DNA of 64,000 nucleotides from positions 62,001-126,000 of the IMG/VR virus record IMGVR_UViG_3300021963_000001. The stretch is one strand, 5' to 3'. The DNA comes from a virus. The translations under genes and the position numbers were made by a program. The notes under the pieces are model-generated. The model was not told the DNA's origin. It saw nothing but the letters and a program-made list of their open reading frames with translations, and made no database searches. This document shows positions 11,714-59,792 of this stretch, in pieces. Every line of letters starts with the position of its first letter. The first letter of the stretch is position 1.

Positions 11714-13336
11714 TCATGTCATCTGAAAAACCTTGCGCACGACTAACGAGTTCCGTTTCGGGTCTCGTTCGCCCTGCACCAAAACCGTGTTGCCCTGAGT
11801 AAGGAGGTGCTTATATTCCTCCCACGGCTCAGAGAAACACACGACATCATCGAGAACGCCCGACGAGTCGGACAAAGTGAGGAACGCCATAAACGTCCCC
11901 TTCTTTGTTTTGAAGGACCGTGCGGCCCGAACTTCAACCCCCAGCAGGAGGAAGCCGGTCTTGCCAGCCCGAAATTCGCCACAGGTCGTATTCGCATCGC
12001 CCAGATCGCAACCGTCAACGCGGGAGCAGGTCAAGGCAAAACCAAAAACCTGTTCTTCAGCCCAAGCCATCCAGGCAGGATGATCGTTAATAGGAGTCGG
12101 TGGATTTTCCAACAAATCAGCTTGGCCACGAATTAAGGCGCCGCGCTTCACATTGGCGACCCCACCGCCTTCTTTCTTCGGTTTAGCCAGCTTGCGAAGC
12201 AAATCAATGAAGGTTTCACCCTCATAATTTTTGGCTGCCCACTCCGCTTCCTTGTCAGTCAGTTTGACATCCAATTCAGCCAACATCCGCTGGCGTTTTA
12301 TACCCGTCCAATCCAAGGCTCCGGCCATGATCAGCTTATGATTCACGGACGGCGTCTCGGCGGCGACATGGAGAAGCCACTCAGCCCAGGTGAAGGTGGT
12401 GGCTTTCTTGTCCAACTTCGCCTCGGCTTTGTTCATGGCTTCAAAGAGCTTGTGCAAGTTGGACTGGCCTAGCCCCTTGATATTACTCAAGCCAAAGTGG
12501 ATATCGACTCCGTCCGTCCAAAAGGTCAGTTGGCGACAGCGCACATCGGGGGGGAAGACTTCGATCCCAGCCCGCCTTGCGTCCTCGACCAGCTCCATCA
12601 CCTCTTGGTCAGGATCAACCTTGTCTTCAGCGAAGGACAACCAGGAGGTGTAAAACTGCACCGGGAAGTGGGACTTGAGATAGGCGGTGTCGTACCCAGT
12701 CAGCCCGTAGCTCATGCTGTGGGACTTGTTGAATTGATACCGACCGGACTTCTCAATCCAGCCCCAGATGGTCTCGGCCACATCCATGGAGACCACCTTG
12801 ATCTTTTCCGCTCCTTCCAGAAATAGTTTTTTGACCTCAGCCATTTCCTTCTGGTCTTTTTTGCCGATGGCCTTGCGCAACCGGTCAACCTGCTTGAGAT
12901 CGAAACCGGCCAACTTGGCCCCGATCTGCATGGACTGTTCCTGGTACACGAGAATCTGCTCAGTAGGAGACAGAATCTCGTCGAGAGCGGGGTCAAACGA
13001 CTCCACCGGCTCTTCCTTGTTGACGCGACGGCAGTAGTGTTCGGTCAAAGAAATGCCGTTTTCATCCTTGGCTGCCAAACAACCTGGACGCAAAAGGGCG
13101 CCCAGAGCCGAAAGGTGTTCGTTATTCCTGGGGCGTAACTTCTTAGCCCAAGTAGCACCCAAACGACTCTCTAGCTGAAAGACTCCCTTGGTATTGCCAA
13201 CCGACATGAGGTCCCACGCCAAGTTACAATCTGGCAAGTTGGAGACATCCACATCAAGCAGAGGCAAAGCCCCAGGCCGGGGCGGGTCTCCCACCACCGG
13301 CCAAACGCAACCACAAGGGAGGCTAAAATGACTCAT
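11714..13336 (-). CDS. dnaE: DNA polymerase III alpha subunit, C-terminal half (split gene)
   Basis: The 540-residue product matches DnaE from just before the VFQLES motif onward. It contains GVFQLESRL, LRPGCL, ILVYQEQSMQI, LRKAIGKK and YQFNKSHSMSYG in the family order, then a helix-hairpin-helix region (IKGLGQSN) and an OB fold near the end (FLLLGVEVRAARSFKTKKG, FMAFLTLSD). These are the finger, HhH and OB parts; the catalytic aspartates are in the separate gene 14272-16197. The ATG at 13336 overlaps the exonuclease stop as ATGA and replaces an upstream candidate at 13360. No intein remnant is visible, so the two products must assemble. Confidence 0.88.
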   Translation of the reverse strand: MSHFSLPCGCVWPVVGDPPRPGALPLLDVDVSNLPDCNLAWDLMSVGNTKGVFQLESRLGATWAKKLRPRNNEHLSALGALLRPGCLAAKDENGISLTEHYCRRVNKEEPVESFDPALDEILSPTEQILVYQEQSMQIGAKLAGFDLKQVDRLRKAIGKKDQKEMAEVKKLFLEGAEKIKVVSMDVAETIWGWIEKSGRYQFNKSHSMSYGLTGYDTAYLKSHFPVQFYTSWLSFAEDKVDPDQEVMELVEDARRAGIEVFPPDVRCRQLTFWTDGVDIHFGLSNIKGLGQSNLHKLFEAMNKAEAKLDKKATTFTWAEWLLHVAAETPSVNHKLIMAGALDWTGIKRQRMLAELDVKLTDKEAEWAAKNYEGETFIDLLRKLAKPKKEGGGVANVKRGALIRGQADLLENPPTPINDHPAWMAWAEEQVFGFALTCSRVDGCDLGDANTTCGEFRAGKTGFLLLGVEVRAARSFKTKKGTFMAFLTLSDSSGVLDDVVCFSEPWEEYKHLLTQGNTVLVQGERDPKRNSLVVRKVFQMT

Positions 13337-13989
13337 GCGATCAGGGTGCTTTTGGCACACGCCCCCTTGAAGTTGATCTTTTCAGCGTAAAAACGATGCA
13401 CTTTTAAGAAACGGACAATCAATTCTGCCGTCTGTTTCGTGTCTATCATCGCCGAGTGCGCCCCATCCTTGCTCAATCCGAAATAACCGCGAAGCGTATC
13501 CATCTTGCGGTCGGGCAGTTCCTCGCTGTTGTGAAACCAGAACTCCAGCATGTCTTCAAGGTCATAGACCTTTCGGCGATGGAAAAGGTTTTGATCACCG
13601 TTCTTGTCGGTGAAACCATACTTCTGACACAAGCGATTGAAGATTGGCAGATCAAACAGTCGGATGTTTTTGCCAGCGGCAATAGGGGCCGACCCGAACG
13701 AATTACCCTTGGGATTGAACCGCTTGATGAAGGTGGCAAAGCTCCTCCAAACGGCCTCCTGCTCAGGGGCTTTTTTCAATTGATCCCGCGTCTTACCGTT
13801 GACGGCCAGAGCCTGGTCTTGCAGGAGAGAGAAATCAGTCGGCTTGCACAGGCTGTAGAATGTGCCATCGGGCACGACCGACAGAGTCCGCGGGTTGATC
13901 GCCACCGCAGCAATCTCAATCGGTTCGGTGGTCCTGATGTCAAGACCACCAGTCTCAAAATCAAAACAAATGATGATGTTACTGGTCAT
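13333..13989 (-). CDS. DnaQ-like DEDDh 3'-5' exonuclease
   Basis: The 218-residue product has ICFDFETGG (motif I, D-x-E at residues 10 and 12), NIRLFDLPIFN (motif II) and HSAMID (motif III, H-x4-D), so it is a DEDDh proofreading-type exonuclease like the Pol III epsilon subunit. The start at 13989 makes an ATGA overlap with the upstream 97-residue gene; its stop makes an ATGA with the polymerase C-half. Its position between the two halves of the polymerase strongly suggests it proofreads for that enzyme. Confidence 0.88.
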   Translation of the reverse strand: MTSNIIICFDFETGGLDIRTTEPIEIAAVAINPRTLSVVPDGTFYSLCKPTDFSLLQDQALAVNGKTRDQLKKAPEQEAVWRSFATFIKRFNPKGNSFGSAPIAAGKNIRLFDLPIFNRLCQKYGFTDKNGDQNLFHRRKVYDLEDMLEFWFHNSEELPDRKMDTLRGYFGLSKDGAHSAMIDTKQTAELIVRFLKVHRFYAEKINFKGACAKSTLIA

Positions 13990-14279
13990 TCTCCACCCTC
14001 CACTTCCTCGACCCACAACCGGATTGATTCACCATCGTTGACGATTTCGTGTTTCAGTTCGCAAGTGGGCGATTCTCCGGCAGAGATGAAAGCATTGGTC
14101 ATATTGACCTCGCCGCCTGCCATGATCACCAAGGCCTTGATCATGTGGCCGAGTTCTTCGCCAAGCTTTTTCTTGCTTTCGGTCAATTCTGCCAAAGCAT
14201 CTAAAAGCGCAAGATTATGCGCCACAACCCTTTGCGGAAAGTCCATTTCTTCTGACTCTTCTTCAAATTTGTCAAACAC
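13986..14279 (-). CDS. Small hypothetical protein between polymerase halves
   Basis: A 97-residue acidic protein (MFDKFEEESEEMDF) with a predicted helical middle (LALLDALAELTESKKKLGEELGH is split here: LALLDALAELT, then KKKLGEELG). It overlaps the polymerase N-half stop by 8 bp and the exonuclease start by 4 bp. No family was recognised. Its fixed place inside the split polymerase operon suggests a replisome accessory or bridging role, which is inference only. Confidence 0.65.
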   Translation of the reverse strand: MFDKFEEESEEMDFPQRVVAHNLALLDALAELTESKKKLGEELGHMIKALVIMAGGEVNMTNAFISAGESPTCELKHEIVNDGESIRLWVEEVEGGE

Positions 14280-16197
14280 GCACGGCTCCCCCTTTTAGAA
14301 GCGAAACGGCCCCCTGAATTTTGTCAAGCGCAGCCACCCCAAGAATGTCAAACTTGACAAAACCCATGGCCTCAAGATCGGCCATCTCAACCCCACAAAT
14401 CCTGCGATTCGTAGACTTATCAAAGATCATAGGACAATTGTCAGCTAATGATCTAGGTGCAATCACAACACCAGCAGCATGTTTTGATTGATTTCGTTTG
14501 GTTCCTTCCAGTCGTATGGCTTGGGCGAATTCTGCCGCAAGAGGACCATCTAAAGTCCCATCATCTTTTAGACGGCACCATGGCGACAGTTCCTTCACAT
14601 TGTTTTCTAGCGCCCACATCAGGATGCTGGCCTCGCCAGTCTCCTCGCGCATTTCCTGGAGTTCATCGGCAATAGCAGCTTCATCAGGAATATGCTCAGT
14701 AATTTTATTTATTTCATCAAAAGTTCCTTTTTCATGAGCGCGTAAAACATCCTTGATGGCTGCTCTTCCTTGTAGGCGCGAGAAGGTAACCATCTGGGCC
14801 ACCTTGTCCTCGCCGTACCGTTCACGCATATGCTGAACGACCTCGTCACGGTGGGAGATGGGGAAGTCGCAGTCAATGTCAGGCAAGGACACGCGACCTG
14901 GCTGATTACGGCCTGCGTTATAAAAACGCTCAAACAATAAGCTGTATTTGACTGGGTCCACGTTGGTGATATCTAGAAGATAACTCACTAAACAGCCAGC
15001 ACCCGAACCACGCCCCTTACCGACCAACCAACCCTGACTCCGTGCCCAGTTGCAATATTCCTGCACGATCAAAAAGTAGGGAGATAAACCCGCCTCCATG
15101 ATGACGGCCAGTTCCCTCTTGATCCGATCTCCATAAACGCCATGATCGGCCTTGTCGGAGGTGATCCCGGGCAGCTTGCGTTTCCATCCTTCACGGCAAA
15201 GCTGGCGAACATAATCGTCAGCTGACATGTCGTTAGGGCAGTCGAACTGGGGCAGGAAGGGCTTGGACAGAATGTCGTAGTCCCCGCACAATTCGGCGAT
15301 TTCCAAGGTAGCATCGATCTCATGGGACTCGTGCAGGCCTTTGACTTCGTCAAAATCGGGAATGTGGTAGCGATTGCTGCGGAAAAAGCCACCCAACGAA
15401 ACATCTTCTTGCTTGGCGAGAGCAGCCTGAATGGTAGGCAGGGTTGTCTGCATGGCCGAACATAACAACACCCGCTGGTCAGCAGCGTCCTCTTGGGCCG
15501 GATAGTGGGCGTCTGGAGTGCTGACGGTCTTCAGGCCATGCTTCTTAGCGTAATAACGCAGGGCGCGAACCCCCACCATAGCGGCGGGCAGGTTCTCCTG
15601 ATCGACCGCCTGGATTTCTACCCAAACATTCTCAGCTCCAAACAAGTCGCGGTAACGCTTGGTGATATTGTTCAGGCGGGTTTCCCAGTCCGATGCCACC
15701 ATTGCTCGGGCCTGCTCGTAAGTCTGCGCCCCATAAACAGCCTTGGGGTTAATAAACAGAGCATTGAAAAAGTCGCTTCCCGGGTGGCCAGAGAAGACGA
15801 TCAGCTTGCCGTCTGCATGCTTGCCAAGAAGGTCAAGGTCAAGGCGGGGCTTGCGATAAAAATGGTTGGGGTCGTTACTAGCGTTTGAAGCCTGGATAAG
15901 GCGTTTCCAACCCTCCTCCCCCTTGGCCAACACGCACAAGTGCGATAGCGCACCGTTCTCCTGGCGCTTGTCAAACGCCGGACCTTGGCAGAGATAGAAC
16001 TCGCACCCCAGGATAGGTTTGATATTCTTCTTCCGCAAAGCCTTGGAAAAAGCGGCAACGCCAGAAAGCGTACCGTGATCCGTGATGGCGCAGGTCTTGT
16101 AGCCCAACTTTTCACAGCGGGCCGCAATAGCGTCCGGCTTAGAAAGGCCGTCAAGAAGAGAAAAATAACTGTGACAATGTAGCGGAACCCAACTCAT
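14272..16197 (-). CDS. dnaE: DNA polymerase III alpha subunit, N-terminal half (PHP and palm)
   Basis: The 641-residue product carries the PHP domain (PLHCHSYFSLLDG, ITDHGTLSG, LGCEFYL, SHLCVLAK) followed by the palm. GRGSGAG and LPDIDCDF supply two catalytic aspartates, KHAAGVVIAP follows, and MGFVKFDILGV near the C-terminus supplies the third. It ends about 20 residues later, before the VFQLES region carried by 11714-13336. The start at 16197 has a GGTGGGG site upstream; an earlier ATG at 16266 lies within the nucleotidase gene. PHP metal ligands look mostly intact. Confidence 0.9.
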   Translation of the reverse strand: MSWVPLHCHSYFSLLDGLSKPDAIAARCEKLGYKTCAITDHGTLSGVAAFSKALRKKNIKPILGCEFYLCQGPAFDKRQENGALSHLCVLAKGEEGWKRLIQASNASNDPNHFYRKPRLDLDLLGKHADGKLIVFSGHPGSDFFNALFINPKAVYGAQTYEQARAMVASDWETRLNNITKRYRDLFGAENVWVEIQAVDQENLPAAMVGVRALRYYAKKHGLKTVSTPDAHYPAQEDAADQRVLLCSAMQTTLPTIQAALAKQEDVSLGGFFRSNRYHIPDFDEVKGLHESHEIDATLEIAELCGDYDILSKPFLPQFDCPNDMSADDYVRQLCREGWKRKLPGITSDKADHGVYGDRIKRELAVIMEAGLSPYFLIVQEYCNWARSQGWLVGKGRGSGAGCLVSYLLDITNVDPVKYSLLFERFYNAGRNQPGRVSLPDIDCDFPISHRDEVVQHMRERYGEDKVAQMVTFSRLQGRAAIKDVLRAHEKGTFDEINKITEHIPDEAAIADELQEMREETGEASILMWALENNVKELSPWCRLKDDGTLDGPLAAEFAQAIRLEGTKRNQSKHAAGVVIAPRSLADNCPMIFDKSTNRRICGVEMADLEAMGFVKFDILGVAALDKIQGAVSLLKGGAVRV

Positions 16198-16217
16198 CAA
16201 TCCCCACCTTCCCCTGC

Positions 16218-16796
16218 TTATTCTTCCGCAACAAAATTGAAATAGCGAACTTGATCCTTGACCCACCCAAGGAACTTGTCCATGTCGCGAAAATGACCGT
16301 CAACAGTCAGATGTCCCCGGCTGTTGTAAAGTCTCGGAAAGAGAATAGTAGAACCGCCATGCTCCAAAAATCTCTTGGCGTTCACTTCGTAGTCGTCAAT
16401 AAGAATTTTGCCGTATCCGGCCATCAAATGCTTGGAGGCGCCCACAACAAAACGATGACTGTATTTGGGTAGGTGCTTATTGATCCAAGCAATCTTGCCC
16501 TCGGTGCAACCGGGAGTAGAGGCGGGAGCGGTCGCAATCACCACTCTTTCCCCAAACACTTCCTCCACAATACCCAACACCTTATCGTGTTCTTCAGTCT
16601 TGGGCAGGTTGGCCCAGAAGTCGTAGCCCATTGGCTCCCAGAACTTCTTCTCGTTGTCGCCAACAAATCCAAGTTTGTGGTGAAAATTCCAACAATCCAC
16701 ATCTTTGTGAGTCACAGGAAGATTGTGGAGGGCGATGGCCCCGGCGGTAAAATCCGCCAGGACCCCGTCCAAATCAAGGTAGCAGGTCAACTTCAC
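16218..16796 (-). CDS. HAD-superfamily 5'-nucleotidase (deoxyribonucleotidase-like)
   Basis: The 192-residue protein starts with YLDLDGVLADF, the DxDGVLAD motif I of HAD phosphatases of the 5'-deoxyribonucleotidase type. VVIATAPAS is motif II, EGKIAWI supplies the lysine, and ILIDDYEVNAKRF is the acidic motif IV. Such enzymes dephosphorylate nucleoside monophosphates and tune pool balance. It is coupled to MazG by an ATGA overlap, as expected for nucleotide-pool genes. Confidence 0.8.
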   Translation of the reverse strand: MKLTCYLDLDGVLADFTAGAIALHNLPVTHKDVDCWNFHHKLGFVGDNEKKFWEPMGYDFWANLPKTEEHDKVLGIVEEVFGERVVIATAPASTPGCTEGKIAWINKHLPKYSHRFVVGASKHLMAGYGKILIDDYEVNAKRFLEHGGSTILFPRLYNSRGHLTVDGHFRDMDKFLGWVKDQVRYFNFVAEE

Positions 16797-19276: not shown

Positions 19277-20331
19277 TATTTCAATCTCCCTAAGACCTGC
19301 TTCACTTCGTCGGCGGTGAGGTCGCCCGGATCACGACCTTGGCCTGGACTAACGGTCTGAACTCGAAATGATCGCGCAAGTTGTCCGACTATCTTCTGAG
19401 ATGCTAGTTGTCCAGCCTCATCATCGTCAAGTAAAACAACTACGCGATTTGCCCCAGAAGATTCTAACAGAACTTGCTGTGCATCACTCAATGAAACACC
19501 CAATATTGCAACTGCGTTGTGATAACCAGCTTCCCACAATCTCCAAACATCGCAGGGTCCCTCAACGAGAATGATCGTGCCATTCCTGCGGGCGTCTCGG
19601 AAAGCAGTGAATTGGTTGTACAAAACACGCGATCTCGAAAAACCTGCCGTGTGCATCCATTTGGGCTGAGAGTTGTTGAGAGTGCGTCCAGAAAAACCCA
19701 ATGCCATTCGACCAGCATGATCATAAATCGGTACTACGGCACGGTTTGCGAATGGCCCTTTAAAAGTGTCTCCAACATCAAAATGCTCAAGCACTTCTCT
19801 GCTGAATTTCCGATCAAGGAAAAAATTGCTGGGCAGCACATCCATGCGTGAACGTACCTGTTCTCGCGACCACTTACCTACGGGGCCGCTTTCCACGCAA
19901 AGAACACGAGCCTGGCTTACGAATTCCCTTTGGGATTTGTCGATAGATGGAAGTGGGTCGCCCCCCTTCAAACCGAGCAGGGTTTTAATGAATTTTTCAG
20001 TTTCTGAAACGCTAGCAATTTGGTTGCCCTCTGTTGACCAGCCATAACGCTGACGAGAAAGGGCACCACGGACAAACCCAAATGTGTCATCACGAAAAAC
20101 CTTTTCGCAACCCCTAGTAAAACATTGCCAGTAGCCCATGGAAGCGTTGTAGTAAATCCGACAACCTGCCGGATTGTCACCACCATGAACTGGGCAGGGG
20201 GCGAAAAACGAGTTTTCTGCGGGTCTATAGTCGAGGCCCAGATTGTCGAGGACTGTCTCCAAACGCTGAGTCGCAAGACTAGCCAATCTGCGAAGACGCT
20301 CAAAATTCTGCGGTGTCCTTGGTGGAACCAT
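19276..20331 (-). CDS. dnaG: DnaG-type DNA primase
   Basis: The product (about 351 residues from the preferred start) has a zinc-binding N-domain (APCPVHGGD, CRIYYN, then CFTRGCEK), a linker and a TOPRIM domain with IILVEGPCDVW and VVVLLDDDEAG (acidic metal site), ending GRDPGDLT. Shorter than cellular DnaG but typical of phage primases. I chose an ATG at 20331 (MVPPRTP); ATGs at 20400 and 20406 are possible but overlap the helicase more deeply. It makes RNA primers with the DnaB-type helicase encoded just upstream. Confidence 0.85.
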   Translation of the reverse strand: MVPPRTPQNFERLRRLASLATQRLETVLDNLGLDYRPAENSFFAPCPVHGGDNPAGCRIYYNASMGYWQCFTRGCEKVFRDDTFGFVRGALSRQRYGWSTEGNQIASVSETEKFIKTLLGLKGGDPLPSIDKSQREFVSQARVLCVESGPVGKWSREQVRSRMDVLPSNFFLDRKFSREVLEHFDVGDTFKGPFANRAVVPIYDHAGRMALGFSGRTLNNSQPKWMHTAGFSRSRVLYNQFTAFRDARRNGTIILVEGPCDVWRLWEAGYHNAVAILGVSLSDAQQVLLESSGANRVVVLLDDDEAGQLASQKIVGQLARSFRVQTVSPGQGRDPGDLTADEVKQVLGRLK

Positions 20332-21748
20332 CGAAACCTGACTTTGGTCCCCGCCCACGGAGGATGGCGTTGCGTGTCGGCCCCTCTTTGAGTCTGCCAT
20401 ATTCATACTGCCCCTGGATGTTGATGTAATCGCCCGAATCCAAACCCTTGCCGTGACGCGTCACAACTGGAATCAGTTTCAGGTTGTAGCGCACACCGTC
20501 CGGCCCCACCCCTTCTTCGGCCATCTCCTCCTGACTTTTCCACTTGTAAATGGAAAAATTTGAACAAAGCCAGATGATTCGATCTGACCCCGAAGCCGTC
20601 GATGTATCTTCGGCATTGATGCCGTCCCGATTAAGTTGGACGAACGCCAACACAGGAACCTGATAACGAACTGCAAAGTTGTGCAGGTTTGTCATCAGAA
20701 AACCAAGCACCTGGAATTCCGACAGGTTTTTGGTGATCGACCTGTCATCCATAAGCTTGATGTAGTCGAACACGATCATGCAGGGCTTTGTCTGACCAGA
20801 CTCATCAAAGCCCACATGGCGATACAACCAACGACGCATGGTGCCAAGAGTTTCCTCAAACGGCTGGCCCGCAATCGAAGCGTAATGGTACGGAACAGTC
20901 TTGAGTTTTTCCTTGGCGTTATAGACTGCCTTCGACTTCACCTCGTCGGCGCCAAATTTGCCGGTTTTGATCTCATCCACCGTGACATTGGACATGTTGG
21001 CCAACATCCGATGCCAATGTTCTTTGGCCGACATTTCCGTGTCGAGGTTGAGGACAGGAATACCCAGTTTGGCGATATGCAAAGCGATATTGTCAGCCAG
21101 CTGAGTCTTGCCGGTCTTGGGGCGGGCACCGATCACATTGACCGTGCCCTTCTGGAAACCACCACCAATGGCTGCGTCATATTGAGGCAGTCCCGAAGGA
21201 ATTCCCATAACCTCGGACGGATTCGCAGCCAGATAGTCAATGTATTCATCCAAATCTTTGGAGATGTGGCTGAGGTTCTCAGACTGGTTGCCCAAATTGC
21301 CGACGAAGTTAAAAACAGCCTCTTCACCAATCCCCAGGATTTCTCCAAGGGTTTCGTCCCCAGAAATGCTAGACAGCTTTTCTGCCGACTCTCGCATGAC
21401 CTCGCTAAATTCATTGGCCTTATGTAGCTTGACCAAACGCGCAGCCAGCTTACGAAGGTTGGACGGTTCTACGGGAGTGACCGTCAAGGCCCGCAAATAC
21501 TTTTGTTCTTCGGGGTTCTTGAAGATGTCAGCAAACCCCAGAGTCCCAGCCGCCGACAGAATGGAGGGGACATCGGCCTTGGAGCCGGGATCAGATAAGA
21601 CTTTCTCCAGGCATCGATAATAAACAGCATTGGAGCCACAGGTAAAACAGTCTGCGGACAAGACATCGGAGATGTCCACCCATGCCTCATGACCACCTTT
21701 GAGGAGGGCTGCCAGAACCGCTCTCTCCGCTGCCGGGTCCTGATTCAT
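20300..21748 (-). CDS. dnaB: DnaB-type replicative helicase
   Basis: The 482-residue protein begins DPAAERAVLAALL (the helical N-domain of DnaB) and carries the RecA-like C-domain with Walker A GARPKTGKTQ near residues 207-215, LNLDTEMSAKEHWHRM, IVFDYIKLM (Walker B) and AFVQLNR. The start at 21748 has a GGAGGGGG site; an upstream ATG at 21778 is inside the zinc-ribbon gene. No intein was seen at its P-loop, unlike UvsX. It unwinds the phage fork and should contact the primase gene product. Confidence 0.9.
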   Translation of the reverse strand: MNQDPAAERAVLAALLKGGHEAWVDISDVLSADCFTCGSNAVYYRCLEKVLSDPGSKADVPSILSAAGTLGFADIFKNPEEQKYLRALTVTPVEPSNLRKLAARLVKLHKANEFSEVMRESAEKLSSISGDETLGEILGIGEEAVFNFVGNLGNQSENLSHISKDLDEYIDYLAANPSEVMGIPSGLPQYDAAIGGGFQKGTVNVIGARPKTGKTQLADNIALHIAKLGIPVLNLDTEMSAKEHWHRMLANMSNVTVDEIKTGKFGADEVKSKAVYNAKEKLKTVPYHYASIAGQPFEETLGTMRRWLYRHVGFDESGQTKPCMIVFDYIKLMDDRSITKNLSEFQVLGFLMTNLHNFAVRYQVPVLAFVQLNRDGINAEDTSTASGSDRIIWLCSNFSIYKWKSQEEMAEEGVGPDGVRYNLKLIPVVTRHGKGLDSGDYINIQGQYEYGRLKEGPTRNAILRGRGPKSGFDGSTKDTAEF

Positions 21749-22155
21749 CGCCCCCTCCCCCTCATGCACCCTGGGCACATCAGTCCCGAATCAATGTCCC
21801 GACGCATGGCTACTTCGATAGCCGGGACAGAATGCTTCCCACCGCACTTGGGGCAGACAACATCAACAGGCTTGCGGTTTTGGGATGGGGGTCGTCGAGT
21901 CGAGGGTTTGACTTTCTTTAGGATTTTCTTATCGCTGGCGACATGGCCTTTTTCCAAGGTCAAATCATCTTTGAATTTGTTGACAAAACCAGAAGCTGGT
22001 TCGGTAGCAACTGGGGTTTTTCTTTTAGCCTTGGTTTTTGTTTCCGGCTGAGCCTGGCCACTACCAGCTAACAACTGGGCAGTTTGGGCAACCTTGGCCC
22101 AATCTTCCGAGGCCATCGCCATTGCCATCTGTTTGAGCAAATCTTTCTCTGTCAT
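21745..22155 (-). CDS. Zinc-ribbon protein upstream of helicase
   Basis: The 136-residue product has a helical start (LLKQMAMAMASEDWAKVAQTA), a Lys-rich linker and a C-terminal zinc ribbon (VVCPKCGGKH...LMCPGCMRGR). ATGA overlaps join it to the helicase and to the preceding gene. Position suggests a helicase-loading or replisome-binding role, but nothing in the sequence proves that. Confidence 0.6.
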   Translation of the reverse strand: MTEKDLLKQMAMAMASEDWAKVAQTAQLLAGSGQAQPETKTKAKRKTPVATEPASGFVNKFKDDLTLEKGHVASDKKILKKVKPSTRRPPSQNRKPVDVVCPKCGGKHSVPAIEVAMRRDIDSGLMCPGCMRGRGR

Positions 22156-22604
22156 AGCGATCTCCTCTTCGTTGCGGCCAAGGAAGCAAACATATCTGCG
22201 ACCTTTTCTAAACGCAAGGCAAGATAATCAATTCTTTCCAATCTACAAACCAATGTAACTTCCTGGCGTTTTAAATTGCTGGCAAAATCATCTTCCTGAA
22301 TGGCCAGCGCCATGCGCTCGTCGGGGGAGTTGTATCTGTAATTGGCGGTCTTGCTGGCCACGCACTTGAGTATGGCTTCGTTGCAGTATTTGATTTTGGC
22401 CTTGAGCTTATTGCAGGCCTTGGCCACATGGAACGCCAAGCTCGTCAACAGAACAGCAGCCTCGTTGCACTCTTCAGCCGACATGTGATTAAGTTCATGA
22501 TGAGACAGATTCAGGTAGCGCATTGCTCCCTGATCGTCTTGTGGAAATACCGTTTTTTCGTATTCATCCAGGGCCTCATCGACCTTTTTTGATGATTCGC
22601 TCAT
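22152..22604 (-). CDS. Hypothetical helical protein
   Basis: The 150-residue product (starts MSESSKKVDEALDEYE) is mostly helical, with Leu/Ala heptads (EEC-NEAAVLLTSLAFHVAKAC) and a C-terminal basic end. The ATG at 22604 overlaps the nuclease stop as ATGA. No family recognised. It belongs to the helicase/UvsX operon. Confidence 0.6.
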   Translation of the reverse strand: MSESSKKVDEALDEYEKTVFPQDDQGAMRYLNLSHHELNHMSAEECNEAAVLLTSLAFHVAKACNKLKAKIKYCNEAILKCVASKTANYRYNSPDERMALAIQEDDFASNLKRQEVTLVCRLERIDYLALRLEKVADMFASLAATKRRSL

Positions 22605-23005
22605 TGCCGTAATTTCTCCTCCCACTCTTCTTCCGTCCCGTTATAAGCCAGTTCAATAACCTCAAGGCCATTTAGCTCACACCATTCAAGCTTCTTTTTG
22701 TCCCTTTGCTTGGACTGAAGAAATCCCATTGGCGTGCCGTGAAAATGGGCCACAAAACGATAATGTTGTTCGCCGTGAGCTTCTACTACCAGCTTCCGCA
22801 ATGGCAGAAAAAAATCCACGCGCAAACCATCGGAACCAGGGAGACCGACCTCTTCCATGATGCGATCCACCGGATAGACTTTTCGCAAAACATTTCGGAC
22901 TTTGGCATGCAGGCCAGAGCGGAGAGGGGCATCCTCCCCGCCTGTGTGCGAACGCCCGGAGAAGGACCATGTGTAGGTTCTTCCGTCTAGCCCTCTGACT
23001 TTCAT
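22601..23005 (-). CDS. Vsr/DUF559-like PD-(D/E)XK endonuclease
   Basis: The 134-residue product has LRVDFFLPLRKLVVEAHGEQHY, shown here in pieces: VDFFLP then VVEAHGEQHY, the D...E-x-H-G-QHY signature of small phage nucleases found next to UvsX. QRDKKKLEWCELNGLEVIEL follows, as in Vsr/DUF559 folds. The start at 23005 shares an ATGA with the uvsX stop. It probably nicks or resolves DNA during recombination. Confidence 0.65.
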   Translation of the reverse strand: MKVRGLDGRTYTWSFSGRSHTGGEDAPLRSGLHAKVRNVLRKVYPVDRIMEEVGLPGSDGLRVDFFLPLRKLVVEAHGEQHYRFVAHFHGTPMGFLQSKQRDKKKLEWCELNGLEVIELAYNGTEEEWEEKLRQ

Positions 23006-25101
23006 GCGGGCTTGAGCATTCCGTTGATATCGGCCACGAGTGCGGCGATCCAAGTGGGGTTGTCCTGAAGCAGTTTGTACAGCTTCTCGGCCCCCTGGCA
23101 TTTGACCCGCTTGATCGACTCATCGTTCCACTTATCAACCCCCATAAGGTCGAGGTGGCTCTGCATGAATTCGCAAGTCATCCATGCTCCGGCCTTGTTG
23201 ATCAGACCCAGCTGAGTGCCTAAGTTGATCGCCTCATAAACATGGTCAACGCCAGTTCCGTAGCGGATGTAGCTGTCCACTTCCATGCCTGGCGGGCCGA
23301 GAGCGCAGGATTCAATCAGCCAGTGAACCTGTTGGCCGATCTGCTTCTCGTTGCCGGAAGCTCCCACCTTCCACGGACGGTCAAATTTCACCCGAAGTTG
23401 CACATCGGCCTGATATTTCAGGGTCATCGACCCCTTCTCCTGCCAACCGCCATAGCCGGACTGGGACTGAGTCAGGTGCATGATCGCCCACACCAGCGTG
23501 TTCTGCATGGGGACAATATTTGCTGCTTGACGGCAGAATCCGGCGAACTTTTTGTTGCCAGCCCCGCGATTCTCGTACCCGATTCCCTCGTCCAATTCCT
23601 TTTCATCGCACAGAGCAGAAACCGAGTCGATGATGATGAGACAGCCTGGGTGAGTTTTAATGCACTTGAGCGCCAACGTGAGGAAGTCGCCAGCCGTTAG
23701 AATCCGCTCGGGAGTGCTTTGGAAGACCGTGACCTTGTCCAGGTTCAGGCCTGCCGTACCCTTGAGGTTCATCGGCTTGAGGCGCCCCTCAATATTCAGG
23801 TAATAAACATGCCGGCCACCATACTCAGGCTTCTGGCATTGAGCAGCAAAAGATAGGGCGGTGGAAGTGTTGTGGGTGACGATGAAGTTGTCTGTCAAAT
23901 ATAGGCCGTCTTCACGGTAAACCTTGATGCAAACAGACTCTTCGTCCCGCACATAATCAATGGCCACGATCTTGCGGGTAAGGGGTTTTTTCATCCGTAT
24001 TTTGGCCCGGCTCTTTTTGCGGGGCAAACGGAAAAGTATAGAGGCATCGTTGATGCGGATGTGGCAACGGAACGAGCGGAACAGCTTGCCTTTATAGATG
24101 CGTCGGACAGGACGCACCACACACAAGCCGCCGACCGACTGAACCAGCCATTTGACCTGATCAGCCAAGCGTGCCGAAACAGTAGAAAATTCTACCGAAC
24201 CACCTTCACTGATCGTTCCATCGGTATCCATCAAGCCTTGCAGAACAGCCAGGCGAACTTCCGAGGAATTGTACAGATAGCAGTCAGGAACATGCTTGGT
24301 GTGGGCATGTCTGCCAATCAACCCGAGGCGCTTAAGGGCAGACTTCAACTGCCTAGCCCCCGTCAAGCTGTACTCGTGATTGCGATTTCTTTTGAGGTTC
24401 ACTTCACAGTTGGCATGATCTGCCACGGCAACTGCCAATTCCCTATCTATGCCGGAAAAACTCAATTGGGTTTGGGTCATAGAACCATTGCCCAGCATCA
24501 ACCCAACCACATAAGGATGGACGGGGACGGGGCGACTATTGAAGGAAACCGGATTAGGCAAGCGCACAGACCATTTAGGTCGATGTCCCCACCTATTGTT
24601 TTTTTCCTTGTAGTAAATATCGTCTTTAAAGTCTTTGAGAGCAATTACTTGGGGGCCTTTGCGACAACGAGCGGATACTTCCCAAAGGTGATCCAGCCCA
24701 CATTCTGCGCTGTCTCCGTTATCAAAAGTGACTCGATAAACAGCTTTGACTCCTTGAGGAAAAACGCCGACAACAGAAGTGACAGACCCATCTGGATGAC
24801 AGATGGCATCGCCAACAGCCAGATCGCCAATTTTGCGCGGCCCAGTAGGAGTGTAAACGGTTGCGGACACGGGCTGTTCTTTGCCAGTTTTGGGCTGGCC
24901 GGAGCAGGTAATCCACGAACCTTCAGGAATGCCGCCATGTAAACCGACGTCCAGAGCAGGACTGAGCGGAATGACCATCTTCTCGTCGTCGATAAGATCG
25001 CGGGCCGATACCGCCACCCCTTCGCCGTATTCCTTTGTCAGTTCCTTCTGGAGTTGCGCTTCCTCGGTAGCTGCTGACTTCTTATCCTTACTCACGCTCA
25101 A
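23002..25101 (-). CDS. uvsX: UvsX/RecA-like recombinase containing an intein
   Basis: The 699-residue precursor contains a RecA/UvsX recombinase split into residues 1-74 and 412-699. The first part ends in SGQPKTGK and the second begins TSTALSF, which together restore Walker A GQPKTGKTS. CLIIIDSVSALC is Walker B, and MQNTLVWAIMHLTQS follows as in the L1/L2 region. The spliced length of 362 residues fits a phage recombinase. The recombinase would pair homologous strands with SSB and the neighbouring nucleases. Without splicing the P-loop is broken, so the activity depends on the intein. The gene overlaps its neighbours by 4 and 14 bp. Confidence 0.88.
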   Translation of the reverse strand: MSVSKDKKSAATEEAQLQKELTKEYGEGVAVSARDLIDDEKMVIPLSPALDVGLHGGIPEGSWITCSGQPKTGKEQPVSATVYTPTGPRKIGDLAVGDAICHPDGSVTSVVGVFPQGVKAVYRVTFDNGDSAECGLDHLWEVSARCRKGPQVIALKDFKDDIYYKEKNNRWGHRPKWSVRLPNPVSFNSRPVPVHPYVVGLMLGNGSMTQTQLSFSGIDRELAVAVADHANCEVNLKRNRNHEYSLTGARQLKSALKRLGLIGRHAHTKHVPDCYLYNSSEVRLAVLQGLMDTDGTISEGGSVEFSTVSARLADQVKWLVQSVGGLCVVRPVRRIYKGKLFRSFRCHIRINDASILFRLPRKKSRAKIRMKKPLTRKIVAIDYVRDEESVCIKVYREDGLYLTDNFIVTHNTSTALSFAAQCQKPEYGGRHVYYLNIEGRLKPMNLKGTAGLNLDKVTVFQSTPERILTAGDFLTLALKCIKTHPGCLIIIDSVSALCDEKELDEGIGYENRGAGNKKFAGFCRQAANIVPMQNTLVWAIMHLTQSQSGYGGWQEKGSMTLKYQADVQLRVKFDRPWKVGASGNEKQIGQQVHWLIESCALGPPGMEVDSYIRYGTGVDHVYEAINLGTQLGLINKAGAWMTCEFMQSHLDLMGVDKWNDESIKRVKCQGAEKLYKLLQDNPTWIAALVADINGMLKPA
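23869..24879 (-). other. Intein with class 3 signatures and LAGLIDADG endonuclease motifs
   Basis: Residues 75-411 of the recombinase precursor form a 337-residue insertion between the Lys and Thr of Walker A. The first residue is Glu, not the Cys or Ser of ordinary inteins. Block B has LDHLW, block F has ESVCIKV...GLYLTDNFIVTHN, and the C-terminus is THN followed by Thr. Trp at B:12, Cys at F:4 and Thr before the penultimate His are the class 3 (WCT) set. Two LAGLIDADG-like motifs are visible: VGLMLGNGS near residue 198 and LQGLMDTDG near residue 288. The first has Asn where Asp is usual, so cleavage may be impaired while splicing stays intact. Confidence 0.82.
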
Positions 25102-30972: not shown

Positions 30973-33900
30973 TTATCCGTGAAAAGCATTACCACAACCA
31001 GAATTGTTGCAGTCATTGAGACTGGCGTAAGTCCCGCCCGGTCCATTTACTTCCTGACAATCGTAAATGGGATCAAAGCCAGCCATGCCGATTATTGCGC
31101 AGTTGTAAGTTTTAACTGCCGGAGTTCCTGTCGTACCTGGAGAAGTAGTTTCAGGAGTAGAAGTCGTGGCTGGGGGAGTTGTATTTGGGTTGGTTGTTGT
31201 GGTGGTTGTTGGCGCAATAGTCGTTGTGGTGGTAACCGGTTCTGGAGCCGGAGTCGTGGTTGTTGTGGTAGTAGTCGTCGTAGTTGTGGTAGTAGTCGTG
31301 GTGGTCGTAGTTGTGGTAGTAGTGGAAGTAGTCGTACTAGTAGTGGTTGTTGTCGGCTCAGCTGTCGTGGTAGTCGTAGTCGGCGCAGCCGTCGTAGTGG
31401 TCTGTCCACAGACTTCATCGCACGCATACATATTTTCATATGGACCAGAAATAATATTAAAATTTGATTCTGGAGGTGGCATTGAATTAAATGTCTGACA
31501 TGTATAAAAAGCACCCGAGGGGCCGGAGTAATAAGCGCAATACCAACCAGCCACAAACGGTTCAGCTGTTGTAGTAGTTGTGGTCGGCGCAGCCGTAGTA
31601 GTGGTCGTGGTTGTGGTTGTTGTCGGCGCAGCCGTCGTAGTTGTGGTGGTCGTGGTAGTAGTCGGTGGACAACCAGATTGCTGACATGCAATTTCATTAG
31701 GATAAGGACCCGACAATAAATCATAATAAGTGTTATTGTTATCAAACCTATCTCCAACTTCCGGTTGAGAGCTAAAATATAAGCATCCAAAACCAGAACC
31801 AACGATACGTCCATACATAGAATAACAATAATGACCAGCCACAAATGGCGCAGCCGTCGTGGTTGTTGTCGTTGTCGTAGTCGTGGACACACAAGCCGCA
31901 TTGCACGCCGACAGCGAGGCGTAGGGGCCTGCATAACTCACCAGCGGATTTGCCGCAGGCCGACTGGCAATATAACTGCAACTCTTTGTGTTCTGGTAAG
32001 TGTCATCTACGCAGTAGTAGCCAGCCACCCAAGGCTGTGCCGTGGTCGTGGGAGGGGGCGTGGTGTCATCAGGAGGATTTCCTCCCTTGCAGGTAGAACT
32101 ATAAATAATGGCTTGTCGTTCTGGATCATTGGCATCGTTTAGTGTGTGCAGGACGCCAGTAAAGGTTTCCATATGGCGCGTGGACGGATTGCTTCCACCC
32201 ATCGCAAAAACAAGCTCTTGTGTCTGGGACTTGCTGGAATCGTAATAGTAATATTGGTCACCATAGTAAGTTGTGATCTCTCCAACACCCAGCTCATTCC
32301 CTCCAGAATGAGCCGTGGTGACTACGCCTTCAAGAAGACGCATGGCAAATTTGCTGTTGATTAAATGCTTTAGATTAAGATTGTAGGTCGCAGCCACATT
32401 AGCATTGATTCCGCCGAATTTCCATCTGTTTGGCATGAACCAATTCTGTTCGTCGGCGCTCAACTCGTAATGGACTTCTGGAGTTTGGAGCTTGAGATGG
32501 ATTGTCTTGGCAGAATCTACCGTGTTGGTGAATTTGAACACAATAATCTCACCAGCCGAGCAAGATAGCCTTTTTTGTTGCGAGTCAAAAAGATTTGTGT
32601 AAGTTACGCTCGGACTTCCAGAGGCATTCCAGTTCCGATAAATATCCAGGCGAATTCCACCGGTCTGGTATCCTCCCGCATTCAAATAATAATTAGCAGC
32701 ATATTGAGAACGGAATCGGAAATACTTGATTTCATTTGCGCCAATCAGATTATAAAGGATCGTATAGTTAGTCGGGTAAACAACCGGTTCGATAGCTGTG
32801 TCTGCCTCGTATTGATAAGCAGCCAAAGCCGAATCACCACCATCATCTCTATGTACCGACCAGACCGTCTTGGTGTCGTTGGTTGAAGTCAATACTTCCA
32901 GAGACCAACTATCAATATTGACAACAAATGCCCCGCCCGTAGTGTTAGCGATCAGCCCCAAGGTCCATTCACCGTTGGGCGAATCGTTGAAAAGATCGGT
33001 CAAATTAGTTCCGTAGGGACTAGCTGAATCATCCCAATAATTTTGAGACTGGTTGTTATTGGGGTTGGGTCGGAAAGAACCAGAGGCGCCAAAAGTTAGA
33101 ACAGGGTCGGCACTGTTGTTGGTTATCGTGTAATTCTGACCAACACCATCAACAGGAACAGATAGTTGGCCAGCAATCAGCACATCCTTACCGGCTGGAG
33201 ACCGAAGGATCAACACAGTATTGCTGGTGGTAGCCGTGGCGGCAAGATTGTACAGTCTGAGGGTCAACCCCGAAATAACTCCGGCCATTCCAGAGAAAGT
33301 CAGTTTGCCGCGCCGCAAAGCACTTCCTGTCGATTGAGGAGGTCCGAAATAATAAGTAACATTGTCAATAGTGGTTTCACTTAACAGCATCTGAACTTCT
33401 GGAACTTCAGATGGCCAGGCTGGCGGTGGTGGCAGGGTCGCCGGGTCCATATTCAATCGCACATACATGTTGGGCTGGGCACATTCCGTGCAAGTGCCAT
33501 TGTAAATAAAAGCAGCATTTTCCCCCTCAAACGGGTGAATGGCACAATCATAGCTAAACGGAACATTGTCATTTAGTGTCACAGTAAGAGTCACATCCCC
33601 ACCATAAAAACCATCAGCGACATTGCCGCTGGCGCCGTTTGTTGTCGCTTTGACCAGCCGACTAAAACCCTGACTATCAAAAACTCGGAATGGGTGGGCT
33701 GATGTATTTTGAAGGTGAAACTTATAAGTTTTGTTGGCTACCCATTTTGGGTTCTCGGGAGTGATCTCAAACCAATTCGTGTTATTGCTACTAAATTCAA
33801 ATCGATAGGAGCCATTATTGGCGTCCACGGCACGCACATAGGTTTCTTCGGGCAAGCAATTTCCTGCGACAACAGGAGAAACAGTCGTGGTCGTTGTCGT

Positions 33901-35010
33901 GGTCGGGCTAGCAGTAGTGGTCGTTGTTGTCGTACCAATAATGGGCGTGGCAGTTGTCGTGGTTGTCGTGGTGGTTGATGTGGTCGTGCTGGTTGTAGTC
34001 GTGGTGGTGGTTGTGGTCGTGGTTGTGCAACATGCCCCTAGTACGCGGTAGCCAGCCGCCACGGCATCGTACACAAGGGTGACACCCCCCAAGGGGTAGA
34101 CCGGATAATCGTCGAGATCAAGAACAAGCAGCTTGCTTCCGGCAGGAGTCAAGCCTGAATTGTGCTTGAGGTAGAAGGTATCGGTCTCGCTGACATTCAG
34201 CACATAGACGGTCTCACCGTCGGCGATCTTCTCAACTCCATTGATCTCAAAGCCATTGATGGGCGGGTCAACCCTAACGATGGTTTTTCCGTATCTCATC
34301 AACTCATTAGTGCTGAGACCAGACAGGGCGGGGGTGTGACTAGACAAGGCCACCGCCGAGTTGGCCAGCATTTGGTAGCTGCCGACATGTCGCCATGCAG
34401 TAGAATGTTCGCTCACCAAAACGCCGTCTACGCGGACAAGGCTATATCCTACCGGCCTGCCCGCATCTCTATCCCAGACGACCTTTTGGAGGGCAACTGA
34501 ATTGGTGTTGTCTCGATAAGCAAATACATCAACACACTTACCAGCAGCTTCTGTTGCAGAGACCGAAGGTGTTGGGTCGATAGTGAATTTGCGCCAGCGA
34601 TTTTCTGTGGTGTCCCAGAGTGCAATGTTATCTCCTTGCAATGGGGCCAGGTAAACTGTCCCGGAACCCGCCACCTCTGTGTCGGTCGCCGAGAAAGATA
34701 AGGCGGCGTTAGCCACTCCGTTGTTGTCGAGGGTATCCAGCAAGCCGTCTCTGGTTACCGTGTGGGCAATGGGATCGCCGGAATAATGAAGGACGGCAGA
34801 TGTACCCTCCCGACCGCGCAGCACCGTCAGGGTGTTCGTTTCCGCATCGACAGCGGTTACCCGCATAACTTCTTGGCCGCAGGTAACCTCAAATGGGGCA
34901 GGGGGAAATTTCAAGATGTTAACAACTGTAATTTCAGTGTCGGTCGAACTAATCGGCCCAGCAAGGAAGGTGACGGCTTGATTGGAAAAGCGGTGTAGTT
35001 GCCCGGCCAT
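30973..35010 (-). CDS. Large modular virion protein with poly-Thr linkers and Cys-rich beads
   Basis: The 1345-residue product is modular. Residues 1-327 (GQLHRFSNQAVTFLAG start) are related to the neighbour at 35012-36097 and look like a baseplate or adhesin attachment domain. Two cysteines then lead into poly-Thr linker 329-380. Residues about 385-507 resemble a cupredoxin-like module (SYDCAIHPFEG). About 537-709 resembles a proprotein-convertase P-domain (GVISGLTLRLYN, DSPNGEWTLGL). A beta-rich stretch follows, then four Cys-rich beads (YYCVDD, HYCYSM, WYCAYY and YNCAII, each ending ACxxxC or CNNSGC) joined by Thr/Pro runs. I infer a tail fibre or decoration protein. The beads may be disulfide-bonded, and the Thr runs are candidate glycosylation sites. 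Confidence 0.7.
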   Translation of the reverse strand: MAGQLHRFSNQAVTFLAGPISSTDTEITVVNILKFPPAPFEVTCGQEVMRVTAVDAETNTLTVLRGREGTSAVLHYSGDPIAHTVTRDGLLDTLDNNGVANAALSFSATDTEVAGSGTVYLAPLQGDNIALWDTTENRWRKFTIDPTPSVSATEAAGKCVDVFAYRDNTNSVALQKVVWDRDAGRPVGYSLVRVDGVLVSEHSTAWRHVGSYQMLANSAVALSSHTPALSGLSTNELMRYGKTIVRVDPPINGFEINGVEKIADGETVYVLNVSETDTFYLKHNSGLTPAGSKLLVLDLDDYPVYPLGGVTLVYDAVAAGYRVLGACCTTTTTTTTTTTTSTTTSTTTTTTTTATPIIGTTTTTTTASPTTTTTTTVSPVVAGNCLPEETYVRAVDANNGSYRFEFSSNNTNWFEITPENPKWVANKTYKFHLQNTSAHPFRVFDSQGFSRLVKATTNGASGNVADGFYGGDVTLTVTLNDNVPFSYDCAIHPFEGENAAFIYNGTCTECAQPNMYVRLNMDPATLPPPPAWPSEVPEVQMLLSETTIDNVTYYFGPPQSTGSALRRGKLTFSGMAGVISGLTLRLYNLAATATTSNTVLILRSPAGKDVLIAGQLSVPVDGVGQNYTITNNSADPVLTFGASGSFRPNPNNNQSQNYWDDSASPYGTNLTDLFNDSPNGEWTLGLIANTTGGAFVVNIDSWSLEVLTSTNDTKTVWSVHRDDGGDSALAAYQYEADTAIEPVVYPTNYTILYNLIGANEIKYFRFRSQYAANYYLNAGGYQTGGIRLDIYRNWNASGSPSVTYTNLFDSQQKRLSCSAGEIIVFKFTNTVDSAKTIHLKLQTPEVHYELSADEQNWFMPNRWKFGGINANVAATYNLNLKHLINSKFAMRLLEGVVTTAHSGGNELGVGEITTYYGDQYYYYDSSKSQTQELVFAMGGSNPSTRHMETFTGVLHTLNDANDPERQAIIYSSTCKGGNPPDDTTPPPTTTAQPWVAGYYCVDDTYQNTKSCSYIASRPAANPLVSYAGPYASLSACNAACVSTTTTTTTTTTAAPFVAGHYCYSMYGRIVGSGFGCLYFSSQPEVGDRFDNNNTYYDLLSGPYPNEIACQQSGCPPTTTTTTTTTTAAPTTTTTTTTTTAAPTTTTTTAEPFVAGWYCAYYSGPSGAFYTCQTFNSMPPPESNFNIISGPYENMYACDEVCGQTTTTAAPTTTTTTAEPTTTTTSTTTSTTTTTTTTTTTTTTTTTTTTTTTTPAPEPVTTTTTIAPTTTTTTNPNTTPPATTSTPETTSPGTTGTPAVKTYNCAIIGMAGFDPIYDCQEVNGPGGTYASLNDCNNSGCGNAFHG
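30976..32040 (-). repeat. Alternating Thr-rich and Cys-rich repeat region
   Basis: Within the virion gene this stretch encodes four Cys-rich units of about 40-55 residues (pattern WYC...C...GPY/GTY...C...C), separated by runs of Thr with a few Ala, Pro and Ser. The Thr codons alternate among ACA, ACC, ACG and ACT rather than repeating one triplet. Confidence 0.75.
33871..34026 (-). repeat. Upstream poly-Thr linker
   Basis: Codes for residues about 329-380: a near-pure Thr run with Ser and Ala/Pro breaks, just after a CC pair. Thr codons are again mixed. It separates the N-terminal attachment domain from the cupredoxin-like module. Confidence 0.75.
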
Positions 35011-59574: not shown

Positions 59575-59792
59575 TATTTTCGATCCTTGATAGGTCCCAA
59601 AGTAAAATCGACTTCTAGGCCCGAGTTCCTGTGCAGATGTGCCGTGTAGTAATCTACGAACCAACCCGGCACAATTTTCACGGACACAATTCGCCAACCA
59701 TCGGTTTCAGCATCAGCAATATTCTTGAACCATCTGCGGATACGGAAATCCTTGATTGTTAATAACTCTGTTCCGGTGGATAGATTGATCAT
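59574..59792 (-). CDS. Small hypothetical protein (72 aa)
   Basis: The product (MINLSTGTELLTIKDFR) is a small alpha/beta protein (WFKNIADAETDGWRIVSV, VDFTLGPIKDRK). Its start shares an ATGA with the upstream stop and its own stop a TAATG with the methyltransferase start. Function unknown. Confidence 0.5.
   Translation of the reverse strand: MINLSTGTELLTIKDFRIRRWFKNIADAETDGWRIVSVKIVPGWFVDYYTAHLHRNSGLEVDFTLGPIKDRK

Follow-up and report, generated by a model that had tools for sequence, protein, structure and literature searches.

The locus described here raises two questions, namely whether the insertion in the ATP-binding loop of a phage recombinase is a genuine class 3 intein, and why its LAGLIDADG endonuclease domain has been kept although one catalytic Asp is gone. 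The window (the whole stretch of DNA that was analysed, 64,000 nucleotides in length) belongs to a 149-kb virus record and carries, on the minus strand at 23002-25095, a uvsX/recA-type recombinase gene that contains an intein. The minus-strand frame at 23002-25101 comprises 699 codons without interruption. When the intein is removed, the recombinase contains a Walker A motif and shows similarity to the RecA core (PF00154, Pfam RecA, 1.6e-6), with a match in the TIGR02012 region and a match to PHROG 97, UvsX-like recombinase (8.3e-23). The recombinase probably starts at the GTG at 25093-25095, the in-frame TTG at 25099-25101 being the less likely choice. The GTG was preferred because a GGAGG resembling a Shine-Dalgarno site precedes it by 9 nt, because the codon overlaps the stop of the preceding gene, and because the relatives L116 and L250 have an ATG at the matching position; the precursor would therefore comprise 697 aa and the mature recombinase probably 360 aa. 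An earlier reading of the locus, made from the sequence only, had given a mature length of 362 residues, which assumes the TTG start and is replaced here by the shorter value.

The intein occupies 1011 bp (23869-24879, minus strand) and corresponds to residues 75-411 of the frame, that is, to 337 aa from Glu1 to Asn337, with the junctions SGQPKTGK^EQPVSA...FIVTHN^TSTALSF. The N-extein (24880-25095, minus strand) ends in CSGQPKTGK, thus including Walker A through its Lys, and the C-extein (23002-23868, minus strand, including the stop codon) begins with TSTALSFAAQ, its first residue (the +1 Thr, 23866-23868) being the Walker A Thr of the recombinase. In IMG/VR, close relatives are interrupted by the insertion at the identical site. 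Uninterrupted UvsX proteins, which are 62-63% identical to the window's C-extein, read SGKPKTGK/TVTTLCFA (L250-L252) or SGHPKTGK/TLTALSFA (L253-L261) at the same site, and the nearest upstream Cys of the window protein (in ITCSG) is conserved extein sequence that is present in these proteins as well. Both splice junctions are therefore fixed by the empty-site relatives, which leave no room for a Cys1 at another boundary. The sequence-only reading had placed a 337-residue insertion exactly between Lys and Thr of GQPKTGKT, with Glu rather than Cys/Ser as its first residue and Thr at +1. This placement is borne out, since both ends are set by the uninterrupted relatives, Glu1 is found in every member of the clade, and the +1 Thr is read from the sequence at the junction THN^T.

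Class 3 inteins are defined by Trp at B:12 (N3:12), Cys at F:4 (C2:4), and Thr at G:5 (C1:5), in addition to the His that is usual at B:10 (PMC7891396, PMC3196547). On the minus strand of the window, the intein has His64-Leu-Trp66 in block B (Trp66 at position 12, HLW, 24682-24684), Cys317 at position 4 of block F (23929-23931), which is the predicted first nucleophile and branch point, and Thr335-His336-Asn337 in block G (23869-23877), which provide Thr G:5, the penultimate His, and the terminal Asn; Glu1 and Thr+1 complete the set. Position 1 has no Cys, Ser, or Thr, as expected of class 3 and contrary to the N-terminal Cys or Ser of class 1. When 41 class 3-type relatives, taken from contigs of viruses and bacteria, were aligned, H64, W66, C317, T335, H336, and N337 were invariant, so the signature pattern is not a chance occurrence, and the Trp in block B, the Cys in block F, and the Thr-His-Asn at the end hold as first proposed. 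A profile built from this alignment was scored against solved intein structures using HMMER. The class 3 DnaB inteins 6rix, 6riy, and 6bs8 were found, WCT-engineered gp41-1 scored 14 bits higher than wild-type gp41-1 (80.7 versus 66.4 bits), and the Cys317 column of the profile aligned with the Cys of gp41-1 C1A/F65W/D107C (6riz). The AlphaFold2 model of the intein (pLDDT 94.5, pTM 0.92) was matched by Foldseek to PI-SceI, TliVMA, and the class 3 DnaB inteins MsmDnaB1 and MchDnaB1. Every readable signature of the Trp-Cys-Thr splicing set is present, and solved class 3 inteins are recovered with the profile as well as with the predicted fold; these results support the identification of the element as a genuine intein of this less common type, from which we infer its splicing chemistry. 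The intein in UvsX is a further member of the known class 3 group, and no earlier report of a class 3 intein in a UvsX-type recombinase was found in the literature searched.

Two other accounts of the insertion were considered. A class 1 intein with Cys1 at a different boundary, which had been named beforehand as a refutation, was looked for and was ruled out by the empty-site UvsX proteins, which set the junctions and assign the nearest upstream Cys to the extein; W, C, and T are, moreover, all there. Some class 3-type relatives do have a Cys at position 1 (L027), and inteins of mixed class 1/3 character, with which Tori and Perler dealt in 2011, are reportedly known, but for the window element the chance of a class 1 identity is vanishingly small. 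Hardly more probable is an insertion that does not splice and leaves the gene inactive. Such decay has a precedent in the class 3 intein Arth_1007 (PMC3196547); here, however, the splicing residues are all intact and invariant across the family, the dN/dS of the C-extein is about 0.01-0.04, and in the 149-kb record, which may be incomplete, a single intein of this kind and a single recombinase of the UvsX family were found.

The reading preferred here, with a probability of roughly 0.75, is that the UvsX P-loop holds a full-length class 3 intein that splices in cis and has kept its endonuclease domain, though the cleavage activity has probably been lost or is weak. Cys317 in block F would attack the Lys-Glu1 peptide bond, the N-extein would then be transferred to Thr+1, Asn337 would cyclise, and the exteins would be joined as GQPKTGKT. 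The P-loop is broken in the unspliced precursor, which should not bind ATP; recombinase activity would therefore wait on splicing, and each working recombinase would depend on it.

The LAGLIDADG endonuclease domain spans about intein residues 116-300 (23980-24534, minus strand), and its two-motif fold was confirmed with Pfam LAGLIDADG_3 and with AlphaFold2 (mean pLDDT 94.5) and Foldseek, which matched it to PI-SceI, PI-PfuI, and I-DmoI. In the HMMER alignment to PI-SceI (PI-SceI residue numbers were counted off the printed alignment), Asn131 of the LGNG motif (codon AAT, 24487-24489, minus strand) corresponds to Asp218, Asp220 of the block E motif LMDTDG (24220-24222, minus strand) to Asp326, and Lys195 to Lys301. 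The observation that the first LAGLIDADG-like motif reads LGNGS without the catalytic Asp is thereby confirmed. The block C Asp is the sole change among the aligned catalytic residues, the block D Lys and the block E Asps being kept, and an acidic residue is accordingly found in only one of the two catalytic centres (Asp220 in block E, as against Asn131 in block C). Among about 113 distinct class 3-type inteins that were retrieved, motif C is GDG in 98, and GNG occurs in this UvsX clade only. All nine distinct GNG stretches have Asn131, encoded by AAT or AAC, and they form one clade in the intein tree (support 100/100). Judged from these sequences, the change from Asp to Asn at residue 131 had a single origin, on the branch leading to the GNG inteins of UvsX. 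The same Asp has been lost elsewhere, in the Streptomyces class 3-type inteins L192, L195, L196, L201, L202, and L206, where motif C is LGAG or LGGG. In PI-SceI, substitutions of Asp218 leave DNA binding but abolish cleavage with Mg2+. Double-strand cleavage has probably been lost, or would be weak, in the Asn131 intein.

Selection on the domain was estimated mainly as dN/dS from close, independent tip pairs, which for the GNG clade were few (n=4) and differed within the domain by 5 nonsynonymous versus 51 synonymous changes. These pairs gave a dN/dS of 0.030 (90% CI 0.011-0.067) for the endonuclease domain, 0.098 for the N splicing domain, and 0.039 for the C-extein. The codon ML estimate for the GNG endonuclease domain was 0.047, and lnL was lower by 86 when dN/dS was fixed at 0.2 and by 507 when it was fixed at 1. 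No frameshift or large deletion was seen within the endonuclease domain in the members read. The domain is thus under purifying selection comparable to that on the recombinase, despite the loss of the catalytic Asp, which was unexpected. The suggestion that the endonuclease may be impaired is upheld with a qualification: the catalytic Asp is gone and cleavage is probably lost or weak, but the domain is not decaying.

A sister clade of UvsX inteins (L115-L153) has lost both catalytic motifs, which read LGAG or LLTIG and GILKVAG or GILSFAH. The fold is kept in this motif-less clade (pLDDT 88.9, with Foldseek matches to TliVMA, PI-SceI, and PhoVMA), and close pairs gave a domain dN/dS of 0.079 (CI 0.055-0.114) versus 0.015 in its own C-extein, the codon ML value for the domain being 0.055. 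A pairwise dN/dS of 0.48, which would have indicated relaxed selection in the motif-less clade, was traced to saturated distant pairs, and this interpretation was rejected on the close-pair and codon ML values. Since both the GNG and the motif-less domains are constrained, domains without a complete active site are preserved. Constraint is, however, expected for any domain folded in an essential protein, so that selection alone is silent on what the domain does.

UvsX proteins with GNG inteins and those with motif-less inteins group together in the C-extein tree, where the empty-site proteins L253-L261 adjoin the motif-less clade (100/99) and the empty-site proteins L250-L252 fall outside this group. 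In the intein tree, the GDG intein of L027 adjoins the GNG clade. Forcing all intein carriers into one clade on the exteins gave a borderline result (AU p = 0.051), and forcing the GNG and motif-less inteins together in the intein tree was not rejected (AU p = 0.077). These borderline values are compatible with one acquisition of the intein among the UvsX proteins or with two, and together with the placement of L027 they make a transfer of the intein between UvsX lineages possible. The history of the UvsX genes looks like one of intein gain, inactivation, and later precise loss. The intein presumably reached the UvsX lineage by homing while it still had an intact endonuclease, and the block C Asp would later have changed to Asn in the clade ancestor, with double-strand cleavage probably lost or weakened from that point on.

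Why the domain was kept after this change can be answered in several ways. Retention for a purpose other than double-strand cutting is the likeliest, be it splicing support, DNA binding, or perhaps nicking, and support of intein folding and splicing or continued DNA binding would be the most plausible forms of it. It is unlikely, but worth serious consideration, that the Asn131 endonuclease still acts on DNA, either as a site-specific nickase through the remaining centre or as a weak cutter, and still promotes homing into uvsX genes that lack the intein. The loss of Mg2+ cleavage in Asp218 substitutions of PI-SceI speaks against such an activity, and the motif-less sister clade, which has no catalytic Asp, is also constrained, so that the constraint needs no catalysis. 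On the other side, the block C Asp alone has been changed, with the block E Asps and the block D Lys kept, the domain is strongly constrained and basic, intein-free UvsX relatives are available as targets, and the Mob homing endonucleases of T4-like phages have been discussed as nicking enzymes (PMC2988022). Ordinary decay after fixation, in which a dead endonuclease would be on its way to being lost, as the homing-cycle model describes, is improbable and is largely refuted by dN/dS values of 0.03 (GNG) and 0.08 (motif-less), far below the neutral value of 1; Asn131 is also invariant, and neither a frameshift nor a large deletion was seen in the domain among the members read. What such decay would explain is the absence of the catalytic Asp throughout the clade, the sister clade without both motifs and with a shorter sequence there, and the position of the empty UvsX proteins L253-L261 next to the motif-less clade, as after a later loss of the intein, and a solved structure with a degenerated domain is known in PhoVMA (PMC8966425). 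A more specific idea is put forward tentatively, as possible but still doubtful, namely that the LAGLIDADG domain with just one of its two catalytic Asps replaced by Asn, fixed in the clade and under selection, is a site-specific nickase or a non-cutting module for DNA binding and splicing control that couples uvsX maturation to DNA, rather than a homing endonuclease in decay.

Immediately downstream of the recombinase, a nuclease-like gene (22601-23005, minus strand; VDFFLPLRKLVVEAHGEQHY) has matches to PHROG homing endonuclease/HNH families, and its ATG overlaps the uvsX stop. This gene was considered as a trans-homing helper for the defective intein endonuclease and was rejected in that role, because it also adjoins uvsX in intein-free relatives (L250-L261, L264, and others). 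As it lies beside uvsX with and without the intein, it is a conserved neighbour with no intein association, and this suggests a gene that works in partnership with uvsX rather than a mobile helper. Elsewhere in the window, DNA polymerase III alpha is encoded in two ORFs on the minus strand, one for the PHP/palm half and one for the finger/C-terminal half, which are separated by a DnaQ-like exonuclease ORF (11714-13360, 13333-14016, and 14272-16266); inspection by eye revealed no intein fragments at the break. A 1345-aa ORF (30973-35010, minus strand) with long threonine runs and cysteine-containing repeats probably encodes a structural or fibre protein, and an 815-aa cytosine-5 methyltransferase-like ORF (57250-59697, minus strand) has a very long variable insert between its catalytic motifs.

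With this intein, a recombinase would be added to the phage proteins in which the ATP-binding loop has to be restored by class 3 splicing. A single UvsX family holds intact GDG domains, GNG domains, motif-less domains, and empty sites, and thus represents a natural series of the homing cycle. The nine distinct Asn-variant sequences come with clean empty-site controls, and since domains with incomplete active sites are preserved, a class 3 intein can be used to test directly whether splicing relies on the endonuclease scaffold, as has been proposed.

The closest known counterparts in splicing type are the inteins of MP-Be DnaB and Deinococcus Snf2 and the solved MsmDnaB1 (6bs8) and MchDnaB1 (6rix/6riy), which share the WCT residues, the lack of a nucleophilic residue 1, the phage setting, and the HINT fold with the window intein; the latter differs in that its host is a UvsX/RecA-type recombinase instead of a helicase and in that one Asp of its endonuclease is replaced. 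The Walker A Lys/Thr site is favoured by inteins, including those of mycobacteriophage terminases such as TerL1-a (PMC5050341), in which the P-loop is interrupted between Lys and Thr as in the window but in a gene other than uvsX. Class 3 relatives occupy the Walker A loops of UvsX, DnaB-like, terminase-like, and other P-loop proteins. In the window, the DnaB-like helicase gene (20300-21778, minus strand) has an uninterrupted P-loop, ARPKTGKT, that closely resembles the insertion site in uvsX (identity at 28 of 60 bases around the junction), and in L051 the homologous DnaB-like site is occupied by a class 3 intein, so that related inteins are found in both genes. In L092 (2866-6366), a terminase-like protein is interrupted by a class 3 intein in its P-loop and, further along, by a second insertion that resembles an intein. 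In L013 (5001-7058), Walker A and the N-junction of the intein are missing owing to a 42-bp deletion that also creates a stop, possibly reflecting a defective phage or an assembly artefact.

The UvsX inteins of L027, L028, L029, L031, L033, L035, and L039 have the same site and class as the window intein and are 37-43% identical to it, but their motif C is GDG and their endonucleases are presumably active, whereas that of the window is GNG. One of them, the UvsX-type intein at 2998-4002 of L027, combines Cys1 with the full WCT set and is thus a mixture of class 1 and class 3. PI-SceI and TliVMA/PhoVMA have a two-motif LAGLIDADG domain at the same position in the HINT fold as the window intein but are class 1 inteins, and the single Asp-to-Asn change that is common to a whole clade under purifying selection sets the window intein apart from them. 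The active site of PhoVMA is degenerated, splicing of TliVMA depends on its endonuclease domain, and a scaffold role in splicing has been suggested for MvuTFIIB inteins as well (PMC8966425). The pI is 10.23 for the DNA-binding TliVMA versus 5.45 for the degenerated PhoVMA (PMC8966425), and the endonuclease domain of the GNG clade, with a pI of about 9.6-10.5, is basic like the former and unlike the latter.
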